A DNA stretch of 36,790 bases from a virus. How positions within the stretch are numbered: the stretch's first letter is position 1; the number at the start of each line of letters is the position of its first letter. The notes under the pieces were generated by a model that was not told the DNA's origin, did not search any database, and saw nothing but the letters and a program-made list of their open reading frames with translations. A program made the position numbers and the translations under genes. The DNA is taken from IMG/VR virus record IMGVR_UViG_3300028548_002308, positions 1 to 36,790 of that record. The stretch is one strand, 5' to 3'. Below, piece by piece: positions 3,260 to 10,486 of this stretch.

Positions 3260-3453
3260 GCAACTACCAAACGCAAAAACGCCTTCGCAATATGGTGGCG
3301 CATGCCATCAAAACCAAATACATAACTGCAAGCGAAGGCCTCACAATCACGCACCACTATGCCATGGGTTCCCGTGCTGCTAGCAGATACACAAGCGAGT
3401 CTAGCAGGGTCCTCATTGCCGATATATCTATGAGGGTCCGCCTTGCCAAGTGA
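3256..3453 (+). CDS. Small basic protein (unknown)
   Basis: This gene encodes 65 residues, is translationally coupled to the ASCH-like gene by an ATGA overlap, and has AAAGGA nine bases upstream. It is strongly basic, with many Lys/Arg (QKRLRNMVAHAIKTKY) and little acid, consistent with nucleic-acid binding. The helical N-terminus and Ser/Arg-rich middle show no recognisable domain. A terminator-like hairpin follows at 3462-3486. Coupling suggests it works with the ASCH-like protein, but this is inference. Confidence 0.55.
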   Translation: MSNYQTQKRLRNMVAHAIKTKYITASEGLTITHHYAMGSRAASRYTSESSRVLIADISMRVRLAK

Positions 3454-3461
3454 GACACTTT

Positions 3462-3486
3462 AAAGGCCTTTAAAACGGGCTTTTTT
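3462..3486 (+). terminator. Terminator-like hairpin with T-run
   Basis: AAAGGCC (3462-3468) pairs with GGCTTT (3478-3483) with one bulged base, and continues into a run of six T residues, nine bases after the stop at 3453. Confidence 0.55.
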
Positions 3487-3537
3487 GGGGTCTCATTTTG
3501 AGGCTTTTTAATACTAACCAGTAGATAGGGACGGCAG

Positions 3538-3633
3538 ATGGAATTTGAAATTGAGAGTTTGATTGATTTGATTTTAGACCAAGATTATTGCGCGGTAAAT
3601 TACGCAACTGGGGGTGATGCTGACAGATATTGA
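3538..3633 (+). CDS. Possible 31-residue acidic peptide
   Basis: A very short frame starting at ATG 3538 and stopping at TGA 3631. It has a weak purine-rich ribosome site (AGGGACGG). The product is acidic (EFEIESLIDLILDQD). It fills the gap between the terminator at 3486 and the palindromic region at 3639. Support is thin; it could be noncoding. Confidence 0.25.
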   Translation: MEFEIESLIDLILDQDYCAVNYATGGDADRY

Positions 3634-3638
3634 ATTGA

Positions 3639-3683
3639 TTACAATATTGTAATAAAATTATTAATGCGACAGTTGTAATAAAA
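3639..3683. promoter_or_regulatory. 14-bp palindrome and direct repeats (candidate operator)
   Basis: TTACAATATTGTAA (3639-3652) is a perfect 14-bp palindrome. Its right half overlaps TTGTAATAAAA (3647-3657), which repeats exactly at 3673-3683, 26 bases further on. The region is AT-rich and noncoding. It lies upstream of the small genes that lead into the MarR-like regulator and integrase. MarR-family dimers bind palindromes of about this size, so an autoregulatory operator is plausible. Confidence 0.45.
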
Positions 3684-3735
3684 CAACAGACCGCGAATTT
3701 TGGATAGTTTAATAGCCTATCCCATAGGAAATAAC

Positions 3736-3918
3736 TTGGATGTTAACAAACGATTCTTTGCCTTTAAGGTGGCAAGTTTTTTGGAGTTTGAATTAGCGTT
3801 GAATAACTACTTATTTATCGCAGTCTTTGGACTGCATATATTTAAAAACTTAAACGTGGATGGACCCTTAATAACCAAAGAAGATAACAAAGAAATAAAG
3901 AGAGGATTTAACAAATGA
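3736..3918 (+). CDS. Possible small protein, TTG start (unknown)
   Basis: The frame is open from a TTG at 3700 (72 residues), but AGGA sits about eight bases before the in-frame TTG at 3736, giving 60 residues. I prefer the latter. There is no ATG start in frame. The product is hydrophobic in the middle (LNNYLFIAVFGLHIF) and lysine-rich at the end. It overlaps the next gene by four bases (ATGA), which supports translation. No family is recognised and confidence is low. Confidence 0.3.
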   Translation: MDVNKRFFAFKVASFLEFELALNNYLFIAVFGLHIFKNLNVDGPLITKEDNKEIKRGFNK

Positions 3919-4151
3919 AAACACGTAGAATACGCGCGGCCGTTTCTAGCCTACGCTGTAAATCAATGGGCTGGCATCGGGAGGACAACTGGCTTTGGCA
4001 CATAGTTTTCACCGATGCTAACAATCGGCTACACCCGAAATGGGGCACGACCTGTGCAATATATGGCTGGACGAGGTTAAATATTTTAAATACTTTATGC
4101 ACTCTTACAGGTTCAAACGATGAACCCAACGGACCAAATGATGATGTCTAA
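3915..4151 (+). CDS. Small basic protein before the regulator (unknown)
   Basis: This gene encodes 78 residues with AGAGGA about nine bases before the ATG. The N-terminus is strongly basic (MKTRRIRAAVSSLRCK). A Trp/His-rich middle follows (GWHREDNWLWHIVF), then a polar Asn/Asp-rich tail. There are three Cys residues but no clear metal-site spacing. I do not recognise it. It overlaps the start of the MarR-like gene, so the two are probably translated together as part of the lysogeny operon. The basic N-terminus suggests nucleic-acid contact, but this is speculative. Confidence 0.55.
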   Translation: MKTRRIRAAVSSLRCKSMGWHREDNWLWHIVFTDANNRLHPKWGTTCAIYGWTRLNILNTLCTLTGSNDEPNGPNDDV

Positions 4152-4494
4152 ATTTACTAAAACACAGAACAAACAACTCCAAGGGATGGCTGGTGCTTTA
4201 GCTGATTTCAACGCGCTATATGCAGAAATGTCGTCAATGCAAATGCGTGTGTTTATCGCTGTGGCTAGACGCGGACCGCTAACAGGCAGAGACATAGCTA
4301 CTAGCTTGTCTATGTCGGGACCTAATGTAAGCAGGTGCGTTGCTATGTTATCGGATGTGATGATTCCCAGCAGAAAAACACAATCACTGGGGCTAGTTGA
4401 GTTAAGCACAGATCCGATGGATAGACGTGTACGCTATGTACAACTCAGCCAGAAGGGGGAAGAATTCGTAAACCAAATCACAGCTAATTTTTAA
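4120..4494 (+). CDS. MarR-like winged-helix transcription regulator
   Basis: This gene encodes 124 residues from ATG 4120. In-frame ATGs at 4138, 4141 and 4144, just after a GGA, may be the true start. The body matches a MarR-type winged helix: RVFIAVARRGPLTGRDIATS (helices 1-2 of the HTH), MSGPNVSRCVAML (recognition helix), then the wing signature GLVELSTDPMDRRVRYVQLS and QKGEEFVNQI. MarR proteins bind palindromic operators as dimers and usually repress. It sits 16 bases upstream of the integrase and overlaps the upstream gene, so it is the best candidate for the regulator deciding integration versus lysis. No CI/Cro-type repressor is visible elsewhere in the window. Confidence 0.75.
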   Translation: MNPTDQMMMSKFTKTQNKQLQGMAGALADFNALYAEMSSMQMRVFIAVARRGPLTGRDIATSLSMSGPNVSRCVAMLSDVMIPSRKTQSLGLVELSTDPMDRRVRYVQLSQKGEEFVNQITANF

Positions 4495-4510
4495 ATCAGG
4501 GGGACAATAT

Positions 4511-5647
4511 ATGTCTATTTATGAAACAGCCACAGGTTGGCAAATTAAGGTGCAAAGGAACGGACATAGGTTCGTTCACTTTGTCGCTGGATTGGACCAA
4601 AAGTCAGAAGCTAAATCTATTGAATCTCAGGCCATAGCAGATATGGCAAGAGGCATTAGACCAGATGCTAAACAGATTATTCATGGCAATGGATTGACCT
4701 TGCAGTTTGCTTTTGAAGCCACGTTTGAACATCGCTGGAAGTATGAATCTAAAGCTTATCAAAAGAAGGTTGAGCAGTATTGGAATGCACTTGATAAATT
4801 TTTTATACAGCAGAAAAAAGTAACACGGCTAACCGATGTTGACACATTGATGGTCGATGAATATATAAGGACATTGAGGGACAAAGGCAATAAGCCTAAG
4901 ACCATCAACAACAAACTGACTTGCCTGTCCTCAATGATTAAGCACATGGTCCATGAGGGACGATTGCAGCATCCTCCTTTGATTGAGTGGGAGAAGGTCG
5001 GGGATAACTCACGCATGCGTTATTACAGCCCTTATGAAGAGGCGCGGCTTATTGAACTGGCGCAAGCTTGGGAATTCCATAAGCCTGAGATGAATGAATT
5101 GCTAGTCGACTTTATCATAGTGCTTTTTGACACTGGGATGAGGCCTTGGCGTGAAGCACATCAACTCCACTGTGGCTGGATAAAATCTGACATAAATGGA
5201 ATGCCTGTTATCCGCATCCCAAAGGAATATTCCAAGACTAAACAGTCTAGGGATATACCAATGACTGACCGCGTAAAGGAGATACTTCTTAAACGTGTGA
5301 CAGGTCAGCTTGTGGACTTCCAACCATTTAAAAAACTGGAGTACAGGTGGCACTGTTGCCGCTTTTGGAATGAGTCTGTTCGCCATGAGATGAACTGGAC
5401 CGATGAGGAAGTTTGGTATGGAATGCGCCACACATTTGCCACTAGGCTAGTGAGTGCTAATGTCCAAATGAAGGTGATACAGAGGCTCATGGGACACGCC
5501 AAAATAACACAGACAGCCAAGTACGCCAAGGTCACAGACGAGGCCTTACAGTCTGGCATTGAGGCACTACAGGGCAAGGACAAAAGCGCGGACACAATGC
5601 CTGCAAATGTCCTACCAAATGAGATACTTCTGGCACTAAGTGCCTGA
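4511..5647 (+). CDS. int: Tyrosine-family site-specific integrase
   Basis: This gene encodes 378 residues with a GGGGGA ribosome site. Residues 1-55 look like an arm-binding domain (YETATGWQIKVQRNG). Residues 65-150 are the SAM-like core-binding domain (TINNKLTCLSSMIKHM). Residues 170-350 are the catalytic domain: R211 (FDTGMRPW), K244 (SKTKQSRDIPM), R306 (MRHTFATRL), H329 (LMGH) and the nucleophile Y338 (AKYAKV). The usual first His of HxxR is Tyr303 here (YGMR). Length and domain order fit phage integrases. A tRNA 3'-end sequence, the presumed attP core, lies 40 bases after the stop. The enzyme would recombine attP with a host tRNA gene. Confidence 0.93.
   Translation: MSIYETATGWQIKVQRNGHRFVHFVAGLDQKSEAKSIESQAIADMARGIRPDAKQIIHGNGLTLQFAFEATFEHRWKYESKAYQKKVEQYWNALDKFFIQQKKVTRLTDVDTLMVDEYIRTLRDKGNKPKTINNKLTCLSSMIKHMVHEGRLQHPPLIEWEKVGDNSRMRYYSPYEEARLIELAQAWEFHKPEMNELLVDFIIVLFDTGMRPWREAHQLHCGWIKSDINGMPVIRIPKEYSKTKQSRDIPMTDRVKEILLKRVTGQLVDFQPFKKLEYRWHCCRFWNESVRHEMNWTDEEVWYGMRHTFATRLVSANVQMKVIQRLMGHAKITQTAKYAKVTDEALQSGIEALQGKDKSADTMPANVLPNEILLALSA
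5632..5644. promoter_or_regulatory. GGCACT-A-AGTGCC inverted repeat with TGGCACTA
   Basis: A perfect 6+1+6 inverted repeat spans the last codons and the stop of the integrase. Its left half is part of TCTGGCACTAA (5630-5639), a member of the TGGCACTA family. It lies about 310 bases upstream of the RNA polymerase gene and just before attP. It could be a phage promoter, an integrase arm site or both. Confidence 0.4.
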
Positions 5648-5687
5648 TATAACTAACGAATTCTTTACGTGCATCGAGCAGATAACA

Positions 5688-5711
5688 GTTCGAATCCTCT
5701 CGGGCGCGCCA
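5688..5711 (+). other. attP: attP core: 3' end of a tRNA gene
   Basis: The 24 bases from 5688 to 5711 read as the T-loop (GTTCGAATC), the 3' T-stem strand, the acceptor strand CGGGCGC, discriminator G and CCA. The upstream bases cannot form the partner T-stem or an acceptor 5' strand, so this is not a whole tRNA gene. The acceptor strand implies a host tRNA starting GCGCCCG, as in several bacterial Arg tRNAs. Its place 40 bases after the integrase is the classic arrangement for integration that restores the host tRNA 3' end. Confidence 0.85.
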
Positions 5712-5731
5712 TTATTCGATAGTTAATATCA

Positions 5732-5766
5732 AAGGCTGCATCTGTTTTTCTTACAGGTGTGGCCTT
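5732..5766. promoter_or_regulatory. Long RNA hairpin after attP
   Basis: Bases 5732-5745 can pair with 5753-5766 over 14 positions, including three G-T pairs, around a tttttct loop. The outer AAGGC/GCCTT and inner CTGT/ACAG blocks are perfect. No T-run follows, so it is not a clear terminator on the + strand. The wobble pairs mean it acts as RNA rather than cruciform DNA. It could insulate the integrase transcript from the RNA polymerase region. Confidence 0.45.
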
Positions 5767-5783
5767 ACTTTGGCTAATGATTA

Positions 5784-5793
5784 ACAGTACTGT
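5784..5793. promoter_or_regulatory. ACAGTACTGT palindrome, copy 1
   Basis: A perfect 10-bp palindrome in the gap upstream of the RNA polymerase gene. The same palindrome recurs at 8521-8530, directly after that gene. In each case a 26-base conserved element follows (74 bases after copy 1, 11 bases after copy 2). A candidate operator flanking the RNA polymerase gene. Confidence 0.4.
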
Positions 5794-5835
5794 AACTAAT
5801 TCAGTACATATATAGGGGGACAAAAGGCAGGACAA

Positions 5836-5967
5836 ATGGGGCCAAATGATGGCTCAGAGCAAAGGTTGCACTATCACGGTAAGTGGATTGAGAGTCCCTG
5901 CCGTGGGTGCATGGTTTCAGAATTGAAAGTAATTACGGAGAGACTAAATGTCTATAGTAACAGGTGA
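5836..5967 (+). CDS. Possible 43-residue peptide overlapping RNA polymerase start
   Basis: A frame with GGCAGGAC before its ATG runs through the conserved element at 5858-5883 and ends 20 bases inside the RNA polymerase gene. It contains a CRGC pair of cysteines. Because it reads across a sequence that is conserved elsewhere in noncoding contexts, the frame may be accidental. It could instead be a short upstream peptide that influences RNA polymerase translation. Confidence 0.25.
   Translation: MGPNDGSEQRLHYHGKWIESPCRGCMVSELKVITERLNVYSNR
5858..5883 (+). promoter_or_regulatory. Conserved 26-base element, copy 1 (candidate phage promoter)
   Basis: The element reads AGCAAAGGTTGCACTATC followed by ACGGTAAG. 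It is identical to 8542-8567 and differs by one base from 10208-10233. AGGTTGCACTAT matches 10 of 12 positions of the SP6 promoter segment AGGTGACACTAT. It lies 65 bases upstream of the RNA polymerase start. CACGG in the element and CCGTG downstream (near 5901-5905), flanked by GCAC and GTGC, could form a hairpin. Confidence 0.5.
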
Positions 5968-8515
5968 TAGTTTGATGGATGCTCAATTAAACATTGAGAA
6001 GAACATGCGTGATTTTGGTGTTGAAAGAATGGCTAAACAAATAAGTAAACAGAAGGACCAGAGGGGGGAATCTGGGACCCAATATGGACAGGCCATGTTG
6101 ACTCATGGACTAGCTAAATTTGCTGATGGAATTACTGAGTACATCGGTGCAGACCTAGGCCGTGGTGGTAGGGGTGGCTCAGTAAGAAAGTTACTCACTG
6201 GGGGTGACCCTAACGTCATTGGGTTTGTGTTTATGAAATTTATTATCAATGGTATTTCAATCAAACACGGGACACTCCAAGCCATTATTAAAAAAGCAGC
6301 AGCACACGTTGAGGATGAATTTAGATTAGCTGAATTACGCACACAGGATGCCAAATTGTGGAAGCGATTAGTCGATGCTTCAGACCGCAAAGAGGGACAC
6401 TGGAAACGGACAGTCATCGTCAATGCTATGAATGATGAGACAGCCAAGGGGACCATTAATAATTGGGAATCTTGGAGTGCTGCCCAGCTAATGCAAGTTG
6501 GTTCCAAGCTTCTCACAATTCTGATAGAGACTGTCGGGCTAGTCCAAATCACAACCGAATCTAAGGGCAAACACAACACCGTTAAGAGGCTTGTTGCTAC
6601 CCCTGAGACACTGGAGTGGATAGAAGAGAGATGCTCTCGGATAGGCCTCACAGCACCTCAATATAAACCTCTTGTAATCCAACCTAGGGATTGGACTTAT
6701 GAAAACCTCAATGGTGGTATCTATTACTCTCACTACTGCAGGCCTGTTCGGTTTGTTAAGACCAACAACAAAAACTACATGGACGAATTACGGCACACTG
6801 ATATTGACGTGGTCCTCCACTCAATCAATGCTATGCAGCACACTGCGTGGTCTGTTAACAAGGACATCTTAAACCTTGTCAATGAGATGTGGGACAATGG
6901 TGTTGAGTGGTGCGATTCAATCCCACCTAGATTCAATGAGCCTGAAATTAATGCAGATAATTTTGAACTGGAAACCAAACAGCAATGGGCAGCATTTTAC
7001 AAAGAAAAGAACCGTATTGATGCAGCTAATAGGGAGTCAGCCGCAAAGCGTATTGCCTATTCTAGCACCATCGCCACAGCTCAGGAATTCTCCGAGTTCG
7101 ATGAGTTTTACTTTGGGTATAACCTTGACTTCAGGTCGAGGGTCTATGCCATCAGCCAGTACAATGCTATGGGACCTGACCTGATGAAAGCCACCTTGCG
7201 CTTTGCTAATGGAAAGCCATTGGGTGAGTCAGGTTGGAAGTGGCTAGCCATTCACTTAGCTAACGTAGGAGATTTCGACAAGGTATCAAAGGACACTTTG
7301 GAGGCAAGGGTAAAGTGGGTTATGGACAATGAGCATTGGATTATACAGTGCGTTGAGAATCCATTTGAGAATCGCAAGTGGTGTGATGCTGACAAGCCAT
7401 TACAGTTTATGGCAGCAGCTATGGAATGGCGGGGATTCCTTGAGCAGGGGGACGCTTTCGTAAGTCACATACCAATCGCACTTGATGGGTCCGCAAGTGG
7501 TCTTCAACATTTGAGCATGGCTATGCGCTGCGCCAGTACAGCAGGCAACGTCAACCTACTGCCATCTGACAAGCCGATTGATTTATATCAACTCGTTGCT
7601 GACAAGGTGGTGACTCAACTGCGCTTGGACAGTGAACAACCACATGAGCATTGGGGTCCAGCCATCTTAAATAACATGGGAGTGAGGGTCCCTAATTATA
7701 CTGAGCTTGCGCTCGAATGGTTGAAGCATGGGTTTGGACGCTCACATAGTAAGAGGGCAGTAATGACCTACAGCTATGGCTCGAAGCAGTACGGATTTAA
7801 GGAACAAATCCAGACCGATGTGATGCATCCTTTGATGCGTGAATGCAACAAGACAGGCAAGGAATTCCCGTTCAGTTATGACAATGGTTATCGTGCCTCA
7901 TCATACATAGCAAGGTTGCTTTGGGATGCTGTTGTTGATTCAGTCAAACGCCCAGCCCAGCTCATGGATTGGCTCACTGACTCAGCCAGCAAAGTGGCAA
8001 AGGAAAAGTTTGATATGGCAGACGGCTCACTGCAGGCAATGCCAGTTCGTTGGACTACACCTTTAGGATTCCCTGTCGTTCAAAGTTACTATGACACCAA
8101 GCCTAGGCGTGTTAAGACTAGCATCAATGGTGCGTTAGTTTACCTGACCCTAAAGGAAACGACTGACCAGATATGTACTCGCAAGTCTGCGCAGGCATGT
8201 CCACCCAACACCGTTCATTCTTGGGACGCGAGTCACCTAATCCTGACAGTGTCGAGGTCAGCAGATGCAGGCATTGGAAGCTTTAGTCTTATCCATGATT
8301 CTTTCAGCACGTTAGCTGCAGACACCGATGAGTTTTGGCATATCATCAGGGATTCTATGGTGGAAATGTATGAGTCTGATGACATCGTTCACTCTCTGTA
8401 TCTAGAGATGAGGGCGCAGATGAAACCTGAGAACCGCGATGAAATCAAGCTGCCACCTAGTAAGGGGACACTGGACTTAGCTATCACAGCAGAGTCACGT
8501 TATTCTTTTGCCTAA
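5948..8515 (+). CDS. T7-like single-subunit DNA-directed RNA polymerase
   Basis: This gene encodes 855 residues (T7 enzyme 883), with GGAG nine bases before the ATG. The catalytic set is intact: D513 in IALDGSASGLQH (T7 D537), K602 in HSKRAVMTYSYGS (T7 K631), Y610 in SYGSKQYGF (T7 Y639) and D784 in LIHDSFST (T7 D812). The N-terminal third corresponds to the promoter-binding domain. The specificity-loop region (DTKPRRVKTSINGALVYL) differs from T7, so a different promoter sequence is expected. It would transcribe the replication and structural genes, and is expected to be modulated by the amidase at 9787, as T7 lysozyme does. A promoter-like element lies upstream, and a terminator follows at 8593. 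Confidence 0.97.
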   Translation: MSIVTGDSLMDAQLNIEKNMRDFGVERMAKQISKQKDQRGESGTQYGQAMLTHGLAKFADGITEYIGADLGRGGRGGSVRKLLTGGDPNVIGFVFMKFIINGISIKHGTLQAIIKKAAAHVEDEFRLAELRTQDAKLWKRLVDASDRKEGHWKRTVIVNAMNDETAKGTINNWESWSAAQLMQVGSKLLTILIETVGLVQITTESKGKHNTVKRLVATPETLEWIEERCSRIGLTAPQYKPLVIQPRDWTYENLNGGIYYSHYCRPVRFVKTNNKNYMDELRHTDIDVVLHSINAMQHTAWSVNKDILNLVNEMWDNGVEWCDSIPPRFNEPEINADNFELETKQQWAAFYKEKNRIDAANRESAAKRIAYSSTIATAQEFSEFDEFYFGYNLDFRSRVYAISQYNAMGPDLMKATLRFANGKPLGESGWKWLAIHLANVGDFDKVSKDTLEARVKWVMDNEHWIIQCVENPFENRKWCDADKPLQFMAAAMEWRGFLEQGDAFVSHIPIALDGSASGLQHLSMAMRCASTAGNVNLLPSDKPIDLYQLVADKVVTQLRLDSEQPHEHWGPAILNNMGVRVPNYTELALEWLKHGFGRSHSKRAVMTYSYGSKQYGFKEQIQTDVMHPLMRECNKTGKEFPFSYDNGYRASSYIARLLWDAVVDSVKRPAQLMDWLTDSASKVAKEKFDMADGSLQAMPVRWTTPLGFPVVQSYYDTKPRRVKTSINGALVYLTLKETTDQICTRKSAQACPPNTVHSWDASHLILTVSRSADAGIGSFSLIHDSFSTLAADTDEFWHIIRDSMVEMYESDDIVHSLYLEMRAQMKPENRDEIKLPPSKGTLDLAITAESRYSFA

Positions 8516-8520
8516 TACTT

Positions 8521-8530
8521 ACAGTACTGT
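8521..8530. promoter_or_regulatory. ACAGTACTGT palindrome, copy 2
   Basis: Second copy of the perfect 10-bp palindrome, five bases after the RNA polymerase stop and 11 bases before copy 2 of the 26-base element. Confidence 0.4.
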
Positions 8531-8541
8531 ATCAGTTACTT

Positions 8542-8567
8542 AGCAAAGGTTGCACTATCACGGTAAG
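8542..8567 (+). promoter_or_regulatory. Conserved 26-base element, copy 2
   Basis: Identical over 26 bases to 5858-5883. Here GGTTGC (8548-8553) can pair with GCAACC (8567-8572), and ACGGT (8560-8564) with ACCGT (8570-8574); these alternatives overlap, so only one stem can form at a time. A rho-independent terminator begins 25 bases later. The promoter-then-hairpin layout is shared with copy 3. Confidence 0.55.
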
Positions 8568-10209: not shown

Positions 10210-10233
10210 CAAAGGTTGCACCATCACGGTAAG
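10208..10233 (+). promoter_or_regulatory. Conserved 26-base element, copy 3
   Basis: One base different from copies 1 and 2 (CACCATCACGG instead of CACTATCACGG). GGTTGC (10214-10219) can pair with GTAACC (10233-10238) through a G-T pair, where copy 2 has GCAACC, so the stem is kept by a compatible change. A UUCG-loop hairpin follows ten bases later. It overlaps the amidase stop codon. Confidence 0.5.
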
Positions 10234-10294: not shown

Positions 10295-10486
10295 ATGACT
10301 CAATCTAATCAAGTTATTCAGCACCTTAAAACTGGTCGCTCACTTACTTCCATCGAAGCCATTGGACTTTATGGAATCACCCGACTTGCTGCTGTTGTTC
10401 ACTCATTGCATAAGCAAGGCGCTGTCATCAACGTAAACATGAAGACTGGTGTTCGTGGTAAAGCCTACGCTAGCTACTCGCTCTAA
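10295..10486 (+). CDS. Small helix-turn-helix protein
   Basis: This gene encodes 63 residues. The sequence fits the short phage HTH family (HTH_39 type): VIQHLKTGRSLTSIEAIGLY is the opening helix and turn, GITRLAAVVHSLHKQG the recognition region, then a short beta wing (AVINVNMKTG). Such proteins are found near replication genes in many phages, and probably bind DNA or RNA. The stop overlaps the ATG of the primase-helicase by one base (TAATG), so the two are translationally coupled. The ribosome site is weak (GAG). A role in regulating the replication operon is plausible. Confidence 0.65.
   Translation: MTQSNQVIQHLKTGRSLTSIEAIGLYGITRLAAVVHSLHKQGAVINVNMKTGVRGKAYASYSL

Follow-up and report, generated by a model that had tools for sequence, protein, structure and literature searches.

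Regulator–integrase cassettes in T7-like phages

Several T7-like phages carry the genes of a temperate lifestyle next to their RNA polymerase (RNAP) gene. In Pseudomonas phage LUZ100 (OP329100), a MarR regulator is encoded 5′ of a tyrosine integrase, a terminator follows the integrase, and a phage promoter (phi1) lies between the integrase and the RNAP. The regulator and the integrase are cotranscribed, and the MarR protein has been proposed to repress the RNAP, which has the phage promoter at its 5′ side (PMC10134795). The authors further propose read-through from the regulator–integrase genes into the RNAP as the trigger in the course of infection, and no stable lysogens of LUZ100 were obtained (PMC10134795). 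As cited in the same paper, MarR sites have been proposed to flank the RNAP promoter (Boeckman et al. 2022, via PMC10134795), and integrase-bearing pelagiphages have been reported to lysogenize (Zhao et al. 2019, via PMC10134795). Pelagibacter phage HTVC019P and the other integrase-bearing pelagiphages share the order regulator, integrase, RNAP, while Rhizobium phage Pasto places an HTH regulator and then a tyrosine integrase 5′ of its RNAP. For the dormancy of T7-like phages, the literature found offers a published hypothesis without defined operators.

The window, a 36.8-kb virus record, has a T7-like gene order and a T7-like RNAP, as do phages of the LUZ100, HTVC019P, and Pasto type. Its upstream part comprises early small ORFs, the regulator, the integrase, a single-subunit RNAP, a gp2.5-like SSB, an amidase, and a primase-helicase; these are followed by a DNA polymerase, exonuclease, connector, scaffold, capsid, tail, internal virion protein, and fibre. 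Comparison with known phages revealed no DNA-level similarity. The regulator and integrase are 27–32% identical to those of LUZ100, which is associated with tRNA-Leu, whereas the window is associated with tRNA-Arg; as in LUZ100, a terminator follows the integrase, in the window a candidate hairpin. The HTVC019P integrase is about 34% identical over its C-terminal part, HTVC019P is linked to tRNA-Leu, and its operators are not comparable. In Pasto, several genes separate the integrase from the RNAP, and the DNA is unrelated. Neither the operator motif of the window, described below, nor a palindrome shared within a phage was evident in the scanned regions of LUZ100, HTVC019P, Pasto, and Lo5R7ANS.

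Thus, the regulator–integrase–RNAP arrangement and the idea that a MarR protein represses the RNAP are already known, and the window is a new, divergent member. A sequence-only reading of this DNA had described the switch as unusual and poorly known, a view that is not supported: this cassette also occurs in LUZ100 and further T7-like phages, and a MarR-represses-RNAP model has been published (PMC10134795, citing Boeckman et al. 2022). What is added here is the co-variation of operators and regulator in multiple lineages, an operator site at a second phage promoter, and a tRNA-Arg core. The locus also resembles the CI/Cro region of lambda-type phages in having a diverse immunity cassette between conserved flanks and, as predicted for the window, a repressor with operators at its own and at key lytic promoters. 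It differs from that region in that the regulator is a winged-helix protein of the MarR family, no Cro is seen, and the key target would be the phage RNAP gene.

The regulator and its operon

A sigma70-like promoter (TTGAAT-17-TAAAAT) is predicted at 3630–3658 on the + strand from its match to the consensus, although such matches are not enriched in the region. The genes that follow are on the same strand. The first cassette gene is a conserved ORF of 60 amino acids (3736–3918) with a TTG start, which aligns with counterparts in relatives L002, L009, L014, and L019 and had no match in a Pfam search; the earlier reading did not mention it. It is followed by a conserved 78-residue protein (3915–4151) with 22–35% identity in relatives and three invariant tryptophans. 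Searches of Pfam/PHROG-type profiles assigned the latter to no family, and its structure model is unreliable (pLDDT 49.8). The two small ORFs may include an excisionase or an antirepressor. An Rfam search of 3400–6000 gave no match.

The regulator (4120–4494) matches PF12802 (MarR_2, E = 5.7e-8, over the gathering cut-off) and phrog_9665 (transcriptional regulator, E = 2.4e-20). As annotated, it overlaps the ORF at 3915–4151 by 32 nt; since its relatives align from M9 of the window protein, the start may instead be ATG 4144, which would reduce the overlap to 8 nt. The tyrosine integrase (4511–5647; PF00589, E = 1.2e-12; phrog_1, E = 1.6e-40) comes next, and the RNAP (5948–8515; PF00940, 1.6e-97; phrog_414, 8.2e-221) lies beyond it. 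The MarR-like regulator, overlapping small ORF, and integrase described in the sequence-only reading are confirmed.

In the AlphaFold2 model (pLDDT 78.8), the regulator adopts a winged helix-turn-helix fold with a wing. The D-x-x-D-R motif of MarR wings is present as DPMDRR at residues 98–103, and D98, D101, R102, and R103 are invariant in six relatives. The recognition helix spans residues 67–77, with its N-terminal turn at 66–72. The N-terminal helix (14–36) is present in the monomer model, while the last, C-terminal helix is short (111–121). The solved MarR chains that were matched run some 35–45 residues beyond the regulator, the matches ending at positions 109–130 of 150–167 residues.

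Searching viral contigs with the single regulator sequence gave no match, and a search with the alignment recovered only loci already found via the integrase. A CI/Cro-type pair of HTH repressors, which the sequence-only reading had likewise not seen, was not found among the ORFs scanned, a set that covers part of the small ORFs. The MarR-like protein is the best candidate for the lysogeny repressor. The regulator lies directly 5′ of the integrase, and the integrase 5′ of the RNAP, in the window and in all 25 related contigs with a complete integrase; in the five contigs that lack the regulator, the locus is truncated by the contig end. Retention of the integrase with loss of the regulator, the pattern set in advance as evidence against the switch, was hence not observed.

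Candidate operators and phage promoters

The sequence-only reading had pointed to a 14-bp palindrome and direct repeats upstream of the regulator. The palindrome (TTACAATATTGTAA, 3639–3652) is exact and is the core of a perfect 16-bp palindrome, ATTACAATATTGTAAT (3638–3653), which fills the spacer of the predicted promoter and is designated candidate operator O1. Two 11-bp direct repeats, TTGTAATAAAA, are found at 3647–3657 and 3673–3683 (+ strand), the first overlapping half of O1. A sequence of 36.8 kb should contain about two perfect 14-bp palindromes (simple arithmetic with 4^-7), and degenerate matches to this one are near chance level; therefore, the palindrome alone is close to what chance provides and context decides.

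The context is afforded by a motif, TTWCARTAYTGWAA, which at one mismatch or fewer occurs exactly four times in the window (starting at 3639, 5782, 5915, and 8519), each time at a regulatory position. Dinucleotide shuffles contained a mean of 0.145 matches, and 1 of 200 reached four, with the reservation that the motif is partly fitted to its own sites. When the 282-bp intergenic region was shuffled 2000 times, a match of O1 quality to the motif of the RNAP sites arose in 13 cases. The O1 palindrome gains significance only as one of these four matches.

The other three candidate operators, which are motif matches, surround the RNAP gene. O2 (TAACAGTACTGTAA, 5782–5795) is placed 65 bp upstream of the predicted phage promoter phi1 (AAAGGTTGCACTATCACGGTAAG, 5861–5883, + strand), and O3 (TTTCAGAATTGAAA, 5915–5928) follows phi1 and precedes the RNAP start codon (5948), such that O2 and O3 bracket phi1 directly 5′ of the gene. 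O4 (TTACAGTACTGTAT, 8519–8532) lies 3 nt past the RNAP stop codon and 12 bp before a second predicted phage promoter, phi2 (8545–8567, + strand), identical in sequence to phi1. The promoter sequence recurs with one change at 10211 (phi3), and chance would be expected to produce none of these copies. No operator site accompanies phi3. With O2 and O3 around phi1, O4 behind the RNAP, and none at phi3, the RNAP gene is the focus of the motif, and it would be the main target of the regulator. The earlier proposal of an operator at the palindrome is thus retained in part: the palindrome is a plausible autoregulatory operator but only one of four sites. The same is true of the proposed switch, for which the MarR-like protein is the best repressor candidate, yet the strongest comparative evidence lies at the three RNAP-region sites, outside the 3639–5647 segment to which the switch had been assigned.

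O2 may also cover a host-type promoter, as judged from the sequences across the site, which read TTGAAT-18-TATAAT in L073 and TTGAAT-16-TACAAT in L019 and give only a weak match in the window. The spacings of O2 and O3, measured by hand, are 133, 157–159, 173, and 188 bp; no single helical phase accommodates them, and the idea of a fixed phasing was rejected. In relatives, the integrase gene also contains palindrome-like matches (such as GTTCAGTACTGGAA), which were discarded, as they sit in a conserved coding motif.

The phage promoter itself differs between groups, reading AAAGGTTGCACTATCACGG in the window (8545) and CAAGTGTAGCACTATAGCC in L019 (2223, 5126, and 6801), a change that appears to point to orthogonal RNAP–promoter pairs.

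Co-variation of the sites with the regulator

About 30 related contigs were collected from IMG/VR through scans with the integrase, the RNAP, and the attP core. O2, O3, and O4 occupy the same positions in 10–12 close relatives. Most of these read TTTCAGTACTGAAA-like, while the window and L012/L013 read TTACAGTACTGTAA-like, and between the two types both half-sites of O2 and of O4 change together. In L019, L051, and L055, whose RNAPs are 52–58% identical to that of the window, the same three positions carry AGTCTCA-N4-TGAGACT and variants thereof, and in L067 and L077 TTTGTCGATTGGTATA is common to O2 and O4.

The similarity of O2 to O4 is 12.6 of 16 within a phage versus 11.0 between phages (13 phages), and 1 of 5000 permutations was as high; for O3 and O4, the values are 12.0 and 10.8 (2 of 5000). 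These counts overstate the number of events, since related phages are not independent, but some four classes of site are still left. At the promoter of the regulator itself, the co-variation across phages is weak, with 285 and 3222 of 5000 permutations as high, and O1 is convincing only in the window.

The site classes follow the recognition helix of the regulator, with the qualification that the helix–site classes number about four and are phylogenetically linked. TTACA sites occur with the helix sequences SGPN (window) and STPN (L082) in the two such phages whose regulators are sequenced, and TTTC sites with SGSN, TGSN, or LGSN in six phages (L003, L005, L009, L014, L080, and L068). AGTCTCA-type sites accompany SKAN in five phages (L019, L051, L055, L081, and L073), and TTTGTCGATTGG sites accompany SAPT in three (L059, L067, and L077). 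A proline helix goes with TTACA in 2 of 2 cases and a serine helix in 0 of 6 (p about 0.04, calculated by hand and ignoring kinship). This helix–site co-variation is the best indication, at the level of sequence comparison, that the regulator rather than another protein reads the sites.

Two relatives deserve separate mention. In L056 (607–1473, attP core on the + strand), the MarR-like regulator runs into a long charged C-terminal extension, the distance between attP and the RNAP is 1.6 kb, and the pre-RNAP region contains AGTTACAATATTGTAAAT, almost the O1 of the window. In L013 (847–3292), the RNAP is 99–100% identical to that of the window but split into two aligned segments with residues 479–515 missing, which may reflect either a deletion or an assembly fault.

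Divergence of the regulator cassette

In temperate phages, immunity regions show exchange of the repressor together with its operators between conserved flanks. L002 and the window share 98% identity in the integrase and 91% in the upstream 65-residue ORF, but 50% in the regulator and 37–38% in the two small ORFs; DNA similarity ends near 3588 and restarts near 4480. Of all modules, the regulator cassette has diverged most between these otherwise close phages, as would be expected of an immunity region.

Integration site and prophage layout

Between the integrase and the RNAP lies a 24-nt sequence, GTTCGAATCCTCTCGGGCGCGCCA (5688–5711, + strand), which matches the final 24 nt of gammaproteobacterial tRNA-Arg(CCG) exactly, an attP core matching a host tRNA gene as in the temperate T7-like cassette phages. 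It is unchanged in every related locus covering the position. The exact sequence was found in 40 of 369 sampled gammaproteobacterial genomes, and all 12 gammaproteobacterial loci scanned fall in tRNA-Arg(CCG). A gammaproteobacterial host is our guess from these tRNA matches and a Bermanella MAG contig.

Because the core is placed between the two, integration would put the RNAP and the regulator–integrase genes at opposite ends of the prophage. Such a layout is seen in two homologous LUZ100-type chromosomal prophages, in which the RNAP is at one end and the regulator–integrase pair about 37–41 kb away at the other. In G563, the RNAP is at 12.3 kb and the regulator–integrase at 53 kb, and the left end is a split tRNA-Leu. 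The corresponding positions in G687 are 12.4 and 49.5 kb, and its ends (12130 and 51098 of the stretch, L098–L100) are flanked by a 21-bp repeat, TGTGACGCTCTCCTGATCCCT. No tRNA was found near this repeat, which suggests that the use of tRNA genes is not common to all members. A prophage of the same close group as the window was not found in the sampled genome contigs or in 391 genomes of the order.

It follows from the split layout that regulator–integrase read-through into the RNAP is impossible in the integrated state. A hairpin with a 14-bp stem (5732–5766, + strand, −20.8 kcal/mol) lies between attP and the RNAP as a candidate terminator, and the corresponding position in L019 is taken by a hairpin whose sequence differs. 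This element could stop regulator–integrase transcripts in the free phage and tRNA transcripts in the prophage.

Proposed function and alternatives

Taken as a whole, 3630–5711 probably serves a temperate T7-like phage as its module for lysogeny and immunity, with a repressor that would silence the RNAP via the candidate operators. Both small proteins would be expressed from the host-type promoter at 3630–3658, together with the MarR-type repressor and the integrase. Binding of the repressor to O1–O4 would limit its own operon through O1 in the promoter spacer and silence the RNAP and phi2 through O2–O4; O3 could form a roadblock between phi1 and the RNAP. Lacking polymerase, the middle and late genes would remain silent, and loss of the repressor would allow RNAP feedback to start through phi1. 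The integrase is proposed to recombine the 24-nt core at 5688–5711 with the 3′ end of the host tRNA-Arg(CCG), detaching the RNAP from regulator–integrase read-through and setting it behind the host tRNA, where the hairpin at 5732–5766 together with O2 and O3 would shield it. Binding of the regulator to the sites, repression by that binding, and formation of lysogens are what we infer from these arrangements.

It is conceivable that the palindromes bind another protein, either a regulator of the host or the integrase or an excisionase using them as arm sites close to attP, and that the target of the MarR protein is elsewhere. The distance to the attP core is 71 bp for O2 and 204 bp for O3, a range in which other phages have integrase arm sites, and an excisionase could be among the two small cassette ORFs. 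This explanation is nonetheless quite improbable because O4 and O1 are 2–3 kb from attP and the sites change with the recognition-helix class of the regulator. Moreover, L002 and L003 have integrases that are 97–98% identical to that of the window, yet their regulators and O2/O4 sequences differ from those of the window, and a host factor would not be expected to vary in specificity among phages that use the same tRNA. Slightly less probable still is a ligand-sensing regulator that leaves its operator upon encountering a host metabolite or stress compound, a possibility implied by the reporter assay with a ligand that the sequence-only reading had suggested. Many MarR proteins respond to a ligand or to oxidation, and known ligand pockets are near the dimer domain; the 124-residue regulator, however, stops at a short helix without the C-terminal stretch of the solved MarR chains, and the one cysteine near its recognition helix is a threonine in L019.

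A different objection accepts repression of the RNAP but not a stable lysogeny switch, such that the phage is mainly lytic and the regulator delays the RNAP or blocks superinfection. The case of LUZ100, in which the same layout is transcribed but gave no stable lysogens, speaks for this possibility (PMC10134795). Against it stand the intact integrase, an attP core that, in each related locus spanning the position, agrees with the 3′ end of a tRNA, and the occurrence of distant relatives with the same cassette as chromosomal prophages, and we regard it as rather unlikely.

A more specific form of the lysogeny and immunity module can be suggested, tentatively and at somewhat less than an even chance, in which the switch is locked twice. 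One lock would be a MarR repressor that diversifies fast and whose four coordinated operators set the heteroimmunity groups; the other would be integration itself, which physically separates the master RNAP gene from the regulator–integrase operon. If so, a few recognition-helix positions would set the operator code (Pro with TTACA, Ser with TTTCA). The phage group supplies explicit predicted operators at four fixed positions, which are easy to test, a repressor–operator specificity that shifts in concert among relatives, and a clear topology of integration. Superinfection immunity groups could thereby be predicted, and the group would supply repressor/operator pairs acting on orthogonal phage RNAP promoters.

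Further features of the window

A second small winged-HTH protein, of 63 residues (10295–10486; HTH_39, PF14090, 1.1e-14), is encoded downstream of phi3 and before the primase-helicase. Preceding the early genes, the left end of the window contains a perfect 12-bp tandem array of 8.9 copies (CCTATTGACCAA, 1–107) and an 18-bp tandem array of 3.6 copies (ATAGTTGTTGTTACTTAA, 154–218), which are perhaps near a genome terminus.
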